From contig OY282354.1 in the NCBI GenBank assembly GCA_958295485.1, positions 310,001 to 374,000 on the forward strand: DNA of 64,000 bases, given 5' to 3'. The DNA is from an uncultured Gammaproteobacteria bacterium. GTDB lineage: Bacteria; Pseudomonadota; Gammaproteobacteria; Eutrophobiales; Eutrophobiaceae. Made by a program: the position numbers and the translations under genes. How positions within the stretch are numbered: position 1 is the first letter of the stretch; the number at the start of each line of letters is the position of its first letter. This document shows positions 19,206-27,983 of this stretch, in pieces. Under the pieces are notes generated by a model, which saw only the letters and a list, made by a program, of their open reading frames with translations, made no database searches and was not told the origin of the DNA.

Positions 19206-19451
19206 GTGACAACCCTGACAATTGATCTACCCGACCCACTTGCTAAAGAAGCTAATGATGCCGGGCTACTCGAACCAAGAGCTATCGAGGCCATGTTACG
19301 CGAGAACTTGCGTCGTAACGCCCTCAATGACTTATTTACTGCCGCTGATAAATTGGCTATCACCGACTTTCCTTCCATGACGATGGATGAGATCCAGGCC
19401 GAAGTGAACGCCGTGCGTACACAAAGGCAGCAACGTGCGCCTGGTGCTTGA
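19206..19451 (+). CDS. Antitoxin of a PIN-type toxin-antitoxin pair
   Basis: An 81-residue protein starting at GTG 19206. The N-terminal TTLTIDLPDPLAKEANDAG looks like a ribbon-helix-helix-type DNA-binding strand and first helix, followed by an acidic linker. It overlaps the toxin gene by 17 bases, the usual arrangement of such operons. It should neutralise the PIN nuclease and repress the operon. Family assignment rests on context and weak motif similarity. Confidence 0.8.
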   Translation: MTTLTIDLPDPLAKEANDAGLLEPRAIEAMLRENLRRNALNDLFTAADKLAITDFPSMTMDEIQAEVNAVRTQRQQRAPGA

Positions 19452-19857
19452 TACCAATATCGTAGTATCAGGTTTGCTCTGGGGCGGGGTACCGCGTCAG
19501 TTACTCGATTTGGGAAGGGACAATCAAGTAACGCTATTTACCAGCAGTATGCTACTTGATGAACTAGCAGATGTGTTGGGGCGTCGTAAGTTTGGCGCTA
19601 TGCTCGCATCACAAGAGATCACATCGACTTTCCTGGTACAGCGTTATGGCATGTTGACCAATTTGGTAAGGCTTGGATCGATTAAACGTACTGTCCCCAG
19701 GGATGCCGACGATGATGTTGTCATTGCTACCGCATTAGCCGCGCAAGCGGATGTCATTGTCACCGGCGATAGTGATTTGCTTGCGTTGCATCCATACCAA
19801 GGCCTGCAAATCCTCAATGCTACTGATGCGTTGGAGCAGGCAACCCTTTCAATATGA
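19435..19857 (+). CDS. PIN-domain toxin (COG1569-like ribonuclease)
   Basis: A 140-residue PIN-domain protein. The acidic active-site residues are visible: D in RLVLDTNIVVSGLLW, E in MLLDELADVL, D in PRDADDDVVIATA and D in VIVTGDSDLLAL. The form with NIVVSGLLWGG belongs to the PIN subfamily often annotated as the toxin component of type II systems. It probably cuts RNA when free of the antitoxin. The pair is flanked by IS30 transposase remnants, so it may have been brought in by mobile DNA. Confidence 0.88.
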   Translation: MRLVLDTNIVVSGLLWGGVPRQLLDLGRDNQVTLFTSSMLLDELADVLGRRKFGAMLASQEITSTFLVQRYGMLTNLVRLGSIKRTVPRDADDDVVIATALAAQADVIVTGDSDLLALHPYQGLQILNATDALEQATLSI

Positions 19858-23887: not shown

Positions 23888-23969
23888 CGTGATTACCGTT
23901 GATCAATTGAGTCGATTTTATAGTTCCGGAAATATATTGCATTATGGGGAAGAACAAACAAAGTGCAAC

Positions 23970-24013
23970 AGGCGCTCCCGCTGTTCGTCGAAAGTGGGTT
24001 GGGGGAACTGCTG
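23970..24013 (+). repeat. Dispersed repeat, copy A
   Basis: A 44-bp copy of an element whose core is TTCGTCGAAAGTGGGTT, beginning GGCGCTCCCGCT and ending AACTGCTG. It lies 15 bases past the stop of the 317-residue gene. Copies B (26671-26722, inverted) and C (55630-55759) share the core. A and B bracket the nitrile hydratase operon. Confidence 0.8.
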
Positions 24014-24028
24014 AAATGCGATATGGGT

Positions 24029-24982
24029 TTAAATGGCATTAATCGCTATGGGCTGATTCGCTTCGTTGTAAGGGGACTGCATTTTAACGACTTGCCTGGC
24101 GATGTTGTGCCATGCCGAGCGCCCTTCAGCATCTTCACCGCGCGAACCTTTTGCAGCCACCGCGGCTTTTTCTTTAAGGTAATCTTCAATGCCCGTCTTC
24201 TTCAGTACATCCTGAAAGTCTTCGTGCCGTAATCGGTCAAAGGGTTTTTCTGCGCCGTATTTATCATGCAACGGGTGGGGTGGATAGATATGAAAGGTTG
24301 CCGAATAACCATCAGGTATGACCAACTCTTTTTTTGACAGCAGTTTGGGCAATAAATGCGTGTGCGGCCCCCTTTCCGTGCCGGCGCCTTTTGCCGGGAC
24401 CGGCGTGTAAACTTCGATGCGGCCAAGCTTCGAGATAACGATGCGGGCAGGTGATGAGCTTTGCAGCAGTTCGAGCACGTCCCGGCCCTGGTCAAGCATG
24501 ACCTGTCCGGACAACGAGGTCAGTTTTTCAATGAGCCGGCCCTCTTTCGTGCGAACGCAAAACCGGATAGGTTCCAGGCCGAGGCCGAGGTCAAACAGTC
24601 GTTCTTCCCGATCTTCGTCATTCACCGCGTCTTTATCTACCCCCATATCTGTAATCACCCGGTTTACTTTAACCCCGGCCCGTGTTTGAGGTAACGCCAG
24701 GGCCACGGTTTGTGTCCAGGAGCGGGTGCAATGGGTCAATTGCTCGTAGGCAAAACAGGTGATTTGCGCCGGCAGTTTGATGGATATGGCGCCACGGTCT
24801 GTAACTGCAGAGAGACATTCATCCGTTTCCCTGAGCTCGACGGTTTCACCCTCATCATACATGAACTCTGCGATTGCGCCGGAGACGCCGTTGCTCCAAC
24901 TGCTTTCAGGGGCGCGCAGGTAACGTTTGATAAGCTCGATTACCGCTGAGCGAGGGGCGGGTTTCCTAATGATCGTGTCCAT
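24029..24982 (-). CDS. Uncharacterised protein encoded last in the nitrile hydratase operon
   Basis: A 317-residue soluble protein without signal peptide or membrane helix. I do not recognise a function. The conserved-looking core is SKLGRIEVYTPVP, then GPHTHLLPKLL (about residues 215-225) and HIYPPHPLHDKYG (about 246-258). Proteins with GPHTH...LPKLL and a PPHPL motif are known to me only as uncharacterised. Its start overlaps the accessory gene by 17 bases, so it is co-transcribed with the hydratase. The His-rich core could bind metal, which would suit a cobalt enzyme, but this is inference. FDLGLGLEPIRFCVRT is another likely conserved block. Confidence 0.8.
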   Translation of the reverse strand: MDTIIRKPAPRSAVIELIKRYLRAPESSWSNGVSGAIAEFMYDEGETVELRETDECLSAVTDRGAISIKLPAQITCFAYEQLTHCTRSWTQTVALALPQTRAGVKVNRVITDMGVDKDAVNDEDREERLFDLGLGLEPIRFCVRTKEGRLIEKLTSLSGQVMLDQGRDVLELLQSSSPARIVISKLGRIEVYTPVPAKGAGTERGPHTHLLPKLLSKKELVIPDGYSATFHIYPPHPLHDKYGAEKPFDRLRHEDFQDVLKKTGIEDYLKEKAAVAAKGSRGEDAEGRSAWHNIARQVVKMQSPYNEANQPIAINAI

Positions 24983-25304
24983 GCAGGCGTTGATGCTCCT
25001 GTTGCACCTGATGTTTGCGGCTTGCTAATAAATCCGTTGTGACCAGGCCCTTGCCAGTGGTTATTTCTTCCAATGCCGCCAGCCAATGGTTGTAATAGGT
25101 ATCGCCGATGTCGGGGTCGCCTTGGGCGCGGGCGGCAGAAATAGCCTTGCCCAGTTGCTCTGCCCACTCCTGCCAGGTGAAGAGGCCCTGCTCATGCAGT
25201 TTTAATACCAAGGCAAACGCCTGGGCCTGCCAGGGCTCCTTGAAAATCGGCCCGCCTTCACCGATGGGCAGCTCAGGCAAGACATCAAGAGCGGGTGATT
25301 GCAT
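24966..25304 (-). CDS. Nitrile hydratase accessory protein (cobalt insertion)
   Basis: A 112-residue protein homologous to the N-terminal half of the hydratase beta subunit, as all such activators are. It has GGPIFKEPWQAQAFALVLKL, FTWQEWAEQLG, YYNHWLAALE and a His-rich tail (HQRLHGHDH) that could handle the metal. In Co-type enzymes this protein forms a complex with alpha and swaps in a cobalt-loaded subunit. It lies 6 bases after the beta gene. Confidence 0.9.
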   Translation of the reverse strand: MQSPALDVLPELPIGEGGPIFKEPWQAQAFALVLKLHEQGLFTWQEWAEQLGKAISAARAQGDPDIGDTYYNHWLAALEEITTGKGLVTTDLLASRKHQVQQEHQRLHGHDH

Positions 25305-25310
25305 GGATGA

Positions 25311-25979
25311 TCACTGTCCGGCCTGGTCCATATAATCATCAAACAGGTCGATATGGACGTGGTCAGCGGCCGGCGCATCCTCACCCCACAGTTCCCGGGC
25401 GCTGAATTTTACGTTATACACATGCTGCGGTTTATCCGGCCCGCCGTGAGCATTGGTATCGGGCAGGAGGAATATCCCGTGGCGCATTTCTATCACGCCG
25501 CGTTTTCCCCTGATATAACGAGGCAGCCGGGTATGGTGCAGCGGATTGATATTTTTAGCGATGATCGCATCGCCTGCCTTGAACTTCGGCGCGATATCGA
25601 CATCCACGAATACGGGCAAGCGATTATTCATGCCGTATTGCACCCTCTCCGGCGTCGCTGCTTCCACGCCGGTCGCCAGTTCCGGCGCAAGTACCTTGCC
25701 TGATTCAAGCTCTTCCTTTGTGATCAGGTTTTTATTCAGCATCATTAATTCCAGGCTGTACAACCACTTTTCGTAGTACTTGAACGTTAAATAATCCTGG
25801 GGTGGGATGGTTTCCGTCAGATAACGCACTTCGTCTGTCGCATAAATGCCGGCAGCCAACGTGGCGAAGGTAAGGCCAAACACTTTCTTTTCCCAGTCTT
25901 CATGAAATACCGGTTCATCTTTTTCAATATTCATCGGCCCGATGTTATCCATACCGCCGATATCATGAATGCCGTTCAT
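25311..25979 (-). CDS. nthB: Nitrile hydratase beta subunit
   Basis: A 222-residue subunit. The N-terminal MNGIHDIGGMDNIG is diagnostic, followed by EPVFHEDWEKKVFGL and EVRYLTETIPPQDYLTFKYYEKWL. The C-terminal SH3-like domain has FKAGDAIIAKNINPLHHTRLPRYIRGKRG and ends in HVHIDLFDDYMDQAGQ. With alpha it hydrates nitriles to amides. Length and single-chain form argue against thiocyanate hydrolase, where this region is split in two genes. It is 11 bases after alpha. Confidence 0.96.
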   Translation of the reverse strand: MNGIHDIGGMDNIGPMNIEKDEPVFHEDWEKKVFGLTFATLAAGIYATDEVRYLTETIPPQDYLTFKYYEKWLYSLELMMLNKNLITKEELESGKVLAPELATGVEAATPERVQYGMNNRLPVFVDVDIAPKFKAGDAIIAKNINPLHHTRLPRYIRGKRGVIEMRHGIFLLPDTNAHGGPDKPQHVYNVKFSARELWGEDAPAADHVHIDLFDDYMDQAGQ

Positions 25980-25990
25980 AACATTACACC

Positions 25991-26590
25991 CTATTGCAAC
26001 GCGATCAACCCGGTTCCGACCATGGCATCGCGGGTGACGATTTTACTCAATTCCTCTTCGCTCATTCCCTCGGCGCCGGCTGGCCGTTTGGGTAAAACCA
26101 GGTACCTGATCTCGGCATTGCTGTCCCACACGCGCACTTCGGTGTCTGTGGATAATTCAAGGCCGAATTCTCTTAATAAACCGCGCGGGTCGCGGACTGC
26201 TTTGGCCCGGAACGGCGTACTTTTATACCAGTTGGGCGGTAAGCCCAATACGGGCCAGGGATAACAGGAGCAAAGTGTGCAAACCACCAGGTTATGGATC
26301 TTGTCGGTATTTTCCTTGACTACCATGTGGCTGCCTTCGATCCCCGTGTATTCCATCTCTGCCAGCGCAGCTGAGGCGTCTTCCAGCAACGTGGCTTTAA
26401 AGTCGGGATCAGTCCAAGCCCTGGCAACGACCTTGGCGCCGATATGCGGCCCCACCTTGTTTTCATAGTTGTCGATAATGGCATCCAGGGCCTGTTGGTT
26501 CACCAGACCCTTTTCGATTAACAGGGACTCCAGCGCCTTGACCCGAAGCTGCACGTCCGATAACGGCGCCCGATGATTTGATTCTGTCAT
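25991..26590 (-). CDS. nthA: Nitrile hydratase alpha subunit, cobalt type
   Basis: 199 residues from the ATG at 26590, with GAGGAA about 10 bases upstream; a frame running further upstream passes through the dispersed repeat and is not used. The metal motif VCTLCSC (Cys 104, 107, 109) has Thr after the first Cys, which marks the cobalt class (iron enzymes have Ser). [14 protein letters not shown] follows. Two of the cysteines are oxidised in the mature enzyme. First gene of alpha-beta-accessory-unknown. No amidase gene follows, so the fate of the amide is not shown here. Confidence 0.96.
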
Positions 26591-26670: not shown

Positions 26671-26722
26671 AGTTCCCGCTAACAGCCCCCAAACCCACTT
26701 TCGACGAACAGCGGGAACGCCT
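26671..26722 (-). repeat. Dispersed repeat, copy B
   Basis: The most complete compact copy: outer arms AGTTCCCGCT and AGCGGGAAC can pair around the shared core. It is inverted relative to copy A and lies about 80 bases upstream of the nthA start, so it could also influence that promoter. Confidence 0.8.
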
Positions 26723-26777
26723 GGGTTTTTTGCATGGCAAGTGACGTGAGTGAGATATTCAGGTATAAGGATTGATC

Positions 26778-27983
26778 ATGCGTCAATCGAAATTTATTTT
26801 ACTGGTATCTATTGCAGGAATAATCGTCGCTGCCAGCATGGGTATTCGACAGTCCTTCGGGATGTTTTTGCAGCCCGTCGTCACTGATCTGGTGATTACC
26901 CGGGAAATATTCGGGCTTGCAATTGCCATACAGAATCTTATCTGGGGCCTGGCACAGCCTTTTGCCGGCATGTTGGCGGATAAATACGGCAGTTTCCGGG
27001 TACTGGTCATCGCAAGCGGCATTTATATCGCCGGTCTCGTCCTGACTGCTTATACCTCATCTGCCACGGGTTTGTACCTGAGTTTGGGCGCGTTGGTCGG
27101 CCTCGGCATGAGCGGCACTACATTTACGGTGGTATTAAGCTCGGTTGGCAGACTGGTGCCGGAAGAAAAAAGGAGCCTGGCGTTTGGTCTTGTTTCAGCC
27201 GGGGGTTCGGTCGGCATGTTTTCCTTTGTTCCGGCCAGCCAGTTGTTTATCGGACTGTATGGCTGGGCCGTTGCCCTCCTTATCCTGGCCGGCTGCGTCA
27301 TGGTTGTCCCGTTGTTTTCACTGTTTTTTCGTTCTCAGATAAAACAGGATGTCGCCCGGCCGGACACGCGGGAAGGGACTTTATCGCAGTCTCTGGGGAT
27401 AGCCGGCGTCCATTCCGGTTATTGGCTTTTAAATCTTGGTTTTCTTGTATGTGGTTTCCACGTGGCGTTTATTGGAACGCACCTGCCGGCGTTCTTGAAT
27501 GACCAGGCGGTCTCGCCCATGCTGGCGGCAAGCGCGCTCGCCCTGATCGGTTTTTTTAATATTATCGGCACGTACCTGGCCGGCCTGTTTGGCGGCCGTT
27601 ATCGAAAAAAGTATTTATTGAGTGGTTTGTACCTGGGTCGGGCAATCGTTATCGCCTTGTTTATCATGCTTCCCCTGAGCGATGTATCGCTGTTGCTGTT
27701 TGCCGCGGCGATGGGTTTATTATGGTTGGGCACCGTGCCGCTGACCAGCGGCCTGGTTGCCGAGATTTTTGGTACCCGTTACAGCGGGACCTTATTCGGC
27801 ATTGTTTTCTTCAGCCACCAGGTCGGCAGTTTCCTGGGGGCGTGGTTGGGCGGTTATTTCTTCGAGGCCACCGGGTCTTATACCCTGATGTGGCAAATGG
27901 CCATATTGTTAGGCCTTGTCTCCGCCTTGTTGCATTGGCCCATACGGGATGCGCCGATGATTGTGCGGGCGGCGCCGGCGTAA
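26778..27983 (+). CDS. Major facilitator superfamily transporter
   Basis: About 401 residues from ATG 26778, with twelve predicted membrane helices. GMLADKYGSFRVLV between helices 2 and 3 is the MFS loop motif, and MGIRQSFGMFLQPV and GLVSAGGSVGMF resemble the monocarboxylate/oxalate-formate type branch. The substrate is unknown. It is divergent from the nitrile hydratase operon, so uptake of a nitrile, amide or acid, or export of product, is possible. Confidence 0.85.
   Translation: MRQSKFILLVSIAGIIVAASMGIRQSFGMFLQPVVTDLVITREIFGLAIAIQNLIWGLAQPFAGMLADKYGSFRVLVIASGIYIAGLVLTAYTSSATGLYLSLGALVGLGMSGTTFTVVLSSVGRLVPEEKRSLAFGLVSAGGSVGMFSFVPASQLFIGLYGWAVALLILAGCVMVVPLFSLFFRSQIKQDVARPDTREGTLSQSLGIAGVHSGYWLLNLGFLVCGFHVAFIGTHLPAFLNDQAVSPMLAASALALIGFFNIIGTYLAGLFGGRYRKKYLLSGLYLGRAIVIALFIMLPLSDVSLLLFAAAMGLLWLGTVPLTSGLVAEIFGTRYSGTLFGIVFFSHQVGSFLGAWLGGYFFEATGSYTLMWQMAILLGLVSALLHWPIRDAPMIVRAAPA

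Follow-up and report, generated by a model that had tools for sequence, protein, structure and literature searches.

The window, i.e. the whole 64-kb stretch of DNA that was analysed, carries a compact operon of four genes on the minus strand, encoding, in this order, the alpha and beta subunits of a nitrile hydratase (NHase), the NHase accessory protein and a 317-residue protein of the Pfam family DUF6925. The alpha subunit gene (25991..26590; TIGR01323, E 1.3e-89) has its probable start, judged from sequence, at the ATG at 26590, within a frame readable up to 26740, and the motif CTLCSC, within VCTLCSC, assigns the enzyme to the cobalt type. It is followed by the beta subunit gene (25311..25979; TIGR03888, E 4.2e-67) and by the accessory, cobalt-insertion gene (24966..25304), which encodes a His-rich C-terminus and matches TIGR03889 (nitrile_acc) above the cut-off, with E 2.7e-27. 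The last gene (24029..24982, minus strand) starts with an ATG at 24982, its stop codon ends at 24029, and it overlaps the accessory gene by 17 bp. The original prediction had placed this reading frame correctly, although without a strand; the overlap proved exact and the association with a Co-type NHase is borne out by the motif and by the three profile matches.

The operon as a whole is flanked by a 37-nt inverted repeat (95%; 23969-24005 and 26687-26723). The genome holds 13 exact copies of the 20-nt core, CTGTTCGTCGAAAGTGGGTT, and 48 when up to 3 mismatches are allowed, against 0 for the reversed control; the repeat is therefore a dispersed one. A gene for an MFS transporter related to monocarboxylate/oxalate transporters (26772-27983) is divergent from the operon; amide or carboxylate products could be its cargo. 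Elsewhere in the window, two small neighbouring plus-strand ORFs (19206-19857) look, by eye only, like an antitoxin and PIN-domain pair. The cytochrome c gene downstream of the operon was considered as a fifth member and discarded: it is present in 48 of the 53 genomes of the host's genomic family, mostly without DUF6925, and is thus a housekeeping neighbour outside the system. A search for cobalamin riboswitches across the 64-kb window, NHase operon included, found none.

Family assignment and conserved residues

The profile search, which had been proposed as a check, assigned the 317-residue protein to DUF6925 (PF21973) with E 5.6e-81 and 272.6 bits, against a cut-off of 27, over profile positions 2-280 of 300. 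To our knowledge, no function has been assigned to this Pfam family. The original prediction knew of no described role for the protein: the literature searched contained no paper on DUF6925, in agreement with this, whereas the family itself was already named in Pfam. The published name 'BtuN' was considered and set aside, as the two papers that use it give no definition linking it to DUF6925. NCBIfam profiles gave no match, and sequence searches against solved structures, whether by the single protein or by a profile built from 52 sequences, returned chance matches only.

DUF6925 was found in 7 of the 53 genomes of the host's genomic family, namely in six of the seven genomes of its own genus, including that of the window, and in one genome of a second genus; in the host it is single-copy. 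Relatives from the host's genus share 55-58% identity with the window protein and the one from the second genus 39%, and the order alpha-beta-accessory-DUF6925 is kept in 6/6 relatives of the genomic family, across the two genera. Given the Pfam match, these identities and a core that is invariant across 52 relatives, the ORF is, on sequence grounds, well past chance level. NHase occurs in 23 of the 369 genomes of the class, and at the 14 alpha subunit loci from its other families no DUF6925 was found nearby, while beta and accessory genes are close by in most. As the gene is missing beside the majority of the Co-type NHases in the class, the protein is dispensable for cobalt insertion.

Both His-rich motifs noticed earlier were located in the protein: residues 205-215 read GPHTHLLPKLL and residues 234-243 PPHPLHDKYG. 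The impression of conservation holds fully for the first only. Among 124 proteins, the first His of GPHTH (residues 205-209; 24356..24370, minus strand) is kept in 120 and the second in 122. Both are present in all 79 proteins from B12 operons and in all 11 NHase-linked ones, the few replacements falling among the rest; in many B12-operon members the PPHP His is replaced by Asn or Ser, or falls in a gap. GPHTH, W89, D116, D131, R144, R188 and E190 are invariant or nearly so in the family, and the HxH of the GPHTH loop makes it a candidate metal-binding site. Two features common among B12-operon members have been lost in the window clade, the RTHxA segment and Cys96, the latter being replaced by Ala. 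A convergent loss of the RTHxA His in co-transcribed NHase-linked members was also considered and rejected, because the change seen in Reyranella is common to B12-operon members too.

Of the functions suggested at first, two found no counterpart in Pfam and NCBIfam. Neither Amidase nor CN_hydrolase profiles match the protein, which leaves an amide-processing enzyme unsupported, and no regulator-family profile matches it, which leaves a regulator equally unsupported. The same searches gave no match to DNA-binding, membrane or signalling domains, nor to the G3E GTPase domain, and the CxCC motif is absent from the sequence. The HemS (PF05171) and ChuX_HutX (PF06228) profiles gave no match at E<=1, and neither did the TIGR03889 and NHase_beta_N profiles match the protein; the accessory gene upstream does match.

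Genomic context of the family

Relatives were collected by a genome scan, from which the best 80 of 361 were taken; among these, most lie beside B12 uptake genes. The neighbourhood survey, also proposed beforehand, covered 123 loci with a readable protein: btu genes are found within 6.5 kb in 79, NHase in 10 and neither in 34, some of the latter being on short contigs. Typically DUF6925 follows btuB-btuF-btuC-btuD, sometimes together with cbiZ, cobQ, cbtAB or a HoxN-type cobalt transporter. The same picture emerges from annotated plasmids (Methylorubrum pCMU01, Methylobacterium pMRAD01 and plasmids of Novosphingobium, Aminobacter, Phaeobacter, Paracoccus, Shinella and Komagataeibacter), where the gene is terminal or near-terminal in an operon for TonB receptor, binding protein, FecCD permease and ATPase, or divergent from it; several of the btuB-F-C-D operons show overlaps of 4-23 bp. 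In single plasmid records it adjoins adenosylcobinamide amidohydrolase (CbiZ), cobyric acid synthase (cobQ) or a HoxN-type transporter. The cluster of pCMU01 corresponds to btuBFCD with a cobalamin riboswitch ahead of btuB (PMC3621897). Further loci have cbtA/cbtB or HoxN next to the gene, and one of them (L217) shows the order riboswitch-cbtA-DUF6925.

The association with riboswitches was quantified in a class-wide alphaproteobacterial sample of 385 genomes, 26 of which carry DUF6925 at a total of 28 loci. The 115 Mb of these 26 genomes contain 79 cobalamin riboswitches (RF00174), and 14 of the 28 loci have one within 7 kb, against 0.29 expected (P ~ 1e-16); direct scans of DUF6925 loci were concordant. 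The original prediction would have been contradicted by family members lying mostly far from NHases with another proven role. The first half of this holds, as most members are indeed remote from NHases, but their other main neighbourhood comes without a proven role and, being cobalt-centred, supports a metal-related function. Because the family is found elsewhere mostly in vitamin B12 and cobalt uptake operons, DUF6925 is probably a cobalt or corrinoid helper.

The close association of DUF6925 with TonB receptor and ABC importer genes would also suit a protein that regulates cobalt/B12 uptake or assists in the transport, matching uptake to demand in the NHase operon and having no part in NHase maturation. 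This is quite improbable, as the domain searches gave nothing of a DNA-binding, membrane or signalling kind, and in the window its co-translated partner is the NHase accessory gene, and no transporter gene. The host has a B12 locus of its own (G000:C1:1460000-1473000; L146), with genes for a FecCD permease, an ABC ATPase and a periplasmic binding protein, and with a cobalamin riboswitch (L146 6082-6303; contig position 1466081) directly before genes for a TonB receptor and a BtuR/CobO adenosyltransferase. No second DUF6925 was found at this locus or elsewhere in the host genome; the copy in the window therefore seems to be dedicated to the NHase operon.

DUF6925 also lies beside NHases of the CTLCSC type in two further lineages, Afipia and Reyranella. 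At the two Reyranella loci (L043 and L053) the alpha and beta genes are immediately upstream, on the same strand, with no accessory gene detected, and DUF6925 is followed by a cobalamin riboswitch and then by btuB, a nitrilase-like gene, btuF, btuC and btuD. In the two Afipia loci (L067 and L083) a full alpha-beta-accessory set is divergent from DUF6925. A maximum-likelihood tree of 78 sequences places the NHase-linked proteins in three positions: the window clade, Afipia within a Bradyrhizobium B12 clade (support 100/98) and Reyranella (100/99). The NHase-linked label requires three changes on the tree, two of which are forced by well-supported branches, so that the linkage arose independently.

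Two peculiarities of these loci were recorded. In Afipia the NHase alpha gene (L067:9187-10293) encodes a long His/Asp-rich N-terminal stretch (HDHDHHDHHHHGHHHHHDDDH) before the NHase domain; the stretch is probably metal-binding. In Reyranella-type B12 uptake operons, a gene for a carbon-nitrogen hydrolase of the nitrilase superfamily is located between btuB and btuF (L043:13141-13911, L053:13518-14225, L054:13179-13946, L056:13230-13973).

Only ~5% of the retrieved relatives, and none of the 28 sampled alphaproteobacterial loci, adjoin an NHase, as would be expected if the placement were accidental and the protein had a role unrelated to NHase in this host. Such an accident is unlikely in view of the gene order, which two genera keep with protein identities of 39-58%, of the three tree positions at which adjacency to a Co-type NHase arose, and of the ~0.005 adjacencies within 2 kb expected in the set by a rough, approximate estimate from the NHase frequency of the window's class (23/369).

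Predicted fold

AlphaFold models were obtained for the window protein (pLDDT 91.5) and for a btuB-linked relative (pLDDT 91.8); the two are not wholly independent, since their input alignments overlap. In comparisons with the PDB, the best match of both was 3na2, a structure of unknown function. For the window protein it scored Z 7.8, followed by HemS, ChuS, PhuS, HutX and ChuX at Z 5.1-5.6, with unrelated folds at 2.9 or less; for the relative it scored Z 7.2, followed by haem-handling proteins at Z 4.5-5.8, with unrelated folds up to 4.6, and in both cases the aligner warns that values below 8 may be due to chance. Foldseek matches to sliding clamps (TM ~0.1) were discarded as meaningless, and VIA-align reordered the ranking. 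Profile-profile comparison by hhalign against 23 HemS and 7 ChuX-type proteins scored DUF6925 no better than control families. As modelled, then, the fold weakly resembles those of metallo-tetrapyrrole handlers. The resemblance is attractive because HemS-type proteins are cytosolic partners in haem uptake systems (PMC6018153); given Z values below 8 and profile comparisons at control level, it is used here as a lead only.

Proposed role and comparison with known systems

Co-type NHase is an industrial enzyme for the production of acrylamide and nicotinamide, and the cytosolic route by which it receives cobalt is partly understood. Co-location by itself fits a chaperone, an enzyme or a sensor alike. 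The contexts found, i.e. corrinoid uptake and remodelling, cobalt transporters and Co-type NHase, have in common that DUF6925 would handle cobalt, free or bound, after import. The reading preferred here, with a probability of about 0.5, is that the window protein is a cytosolic accessory for cobalt or corrinoid handling, recruited to supply cobalt to NHase. The metal chaperone suggested originally is thus the guess best fitted by the riboswitches, the B12 uptake and cobalt transporter genes and the recurrent Co-NHase linkage; the binding and delivery that it implies are deduced from these contexts.

In the proposed scheme, the general job of the family would be the soluble, cytosolic handling of cobalt, free or as corrinoid, right after uptake, and in most organisms the protein would be made from btuBFCD or cbtA operons under cobalamin riboswitch control. 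In the lineage of the window a copy would have become the fourth gene of a Co-type NHase operon, translationally coupled to the accessory gene. During NHase maturation, cobalt would most likely be passed to the accessory protein or to the alpha subunit, possibly via the conserved GPHTH (HxH) loop.

A more specific role may be envisaged, in which DUF6925 binds a cobamide once it has been imported into the cytosol and then hands it over, reduces or dealkylates it, or opens the molecule so that cobalt is released, the NHase operon thereby obtaining cobalt from corrinoids. Its place in btuBFCD(-cbiZ) operons, which mirrors that of HemS-type proteins in haem uptake, and the structures ranked highest for both models (3na2, HemS, PhuS, ChuS, HutX) point this way. 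Restriction to corrinoids nevertheless appears rather unlikely: the Z values, only 4.5-7.8, are in the range possibly due to chance, hhalign stays at control level, and at some loci the partner of DUF6925 is a cobalt transporter instead of a corrinoid importer. Moreover, riboswitch control would imply expression when cobalamin is scarce, a state in which a cobalt-stripping enzyme would be counterproductive, so that a corrinoid-destroying role is the less likely form. That HemS has its corrinoid counterpart in DUF6925, a cytosolic protein which would receive a corrinoid or a cobalt chelate after import and release or hand on its cobalt, and which some NHase operons would have captured for loading the enzyme with scavenged cobalt, is an improbable extension.

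With the preferred reading, cobalt supply by a recruited cytosolic accessory, DUF6925 gains a concrete candidate role in cobalt/B12 metabolism and may be a missing component of many btuBFCD operons. A fourth NHase-operon gene borrowed from the B12 regulon would offer a direct handle on the cobalt route, and possibly an aid in recombinant production.

The window protein belongs to DUF6925 by full-length match and invariant core; most members are found with btuBFCD under cobalamin riboswitches, whereas the window clade is located in an NHase operon. A survey published in 2009 on how nickel, cobalt and B12 are used names Co-NHases but, in its retrieved passages, no DUF6925-like partner. COG0523/CobW G3E GTPases are likewise metal-supplying accessories encoded in B12 or NHase clusters, and one of this type, Nha3, is the activator of Fe-type NHase (PMC7689651); DUF6925 differs from them in having neither a P-loop GTPase match nor CxCC. 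Cytosolic haem chaperones and oxygenases (HemS/ChuS/PhuS, ChuX/HutX) occupy an analogous operon position, the shared plan being TonB receptor, binding protein, permease and ATPase plus a cytosolic protein, and they are among the top fold matches, but they differ in lacking Pfam or profile-profile similarity, in a haem instead of a cobalamin context, and in Z values below 8. Finally, the NHase accessory proteins of the P14K type (TIGR03889), known chaperones of cobalt insertion and subunit swapping, share with DUF6925 the operon and, presumably, the assistance to cobalt supply, while being unrelated to it in sequence; the window carries both, side by side.
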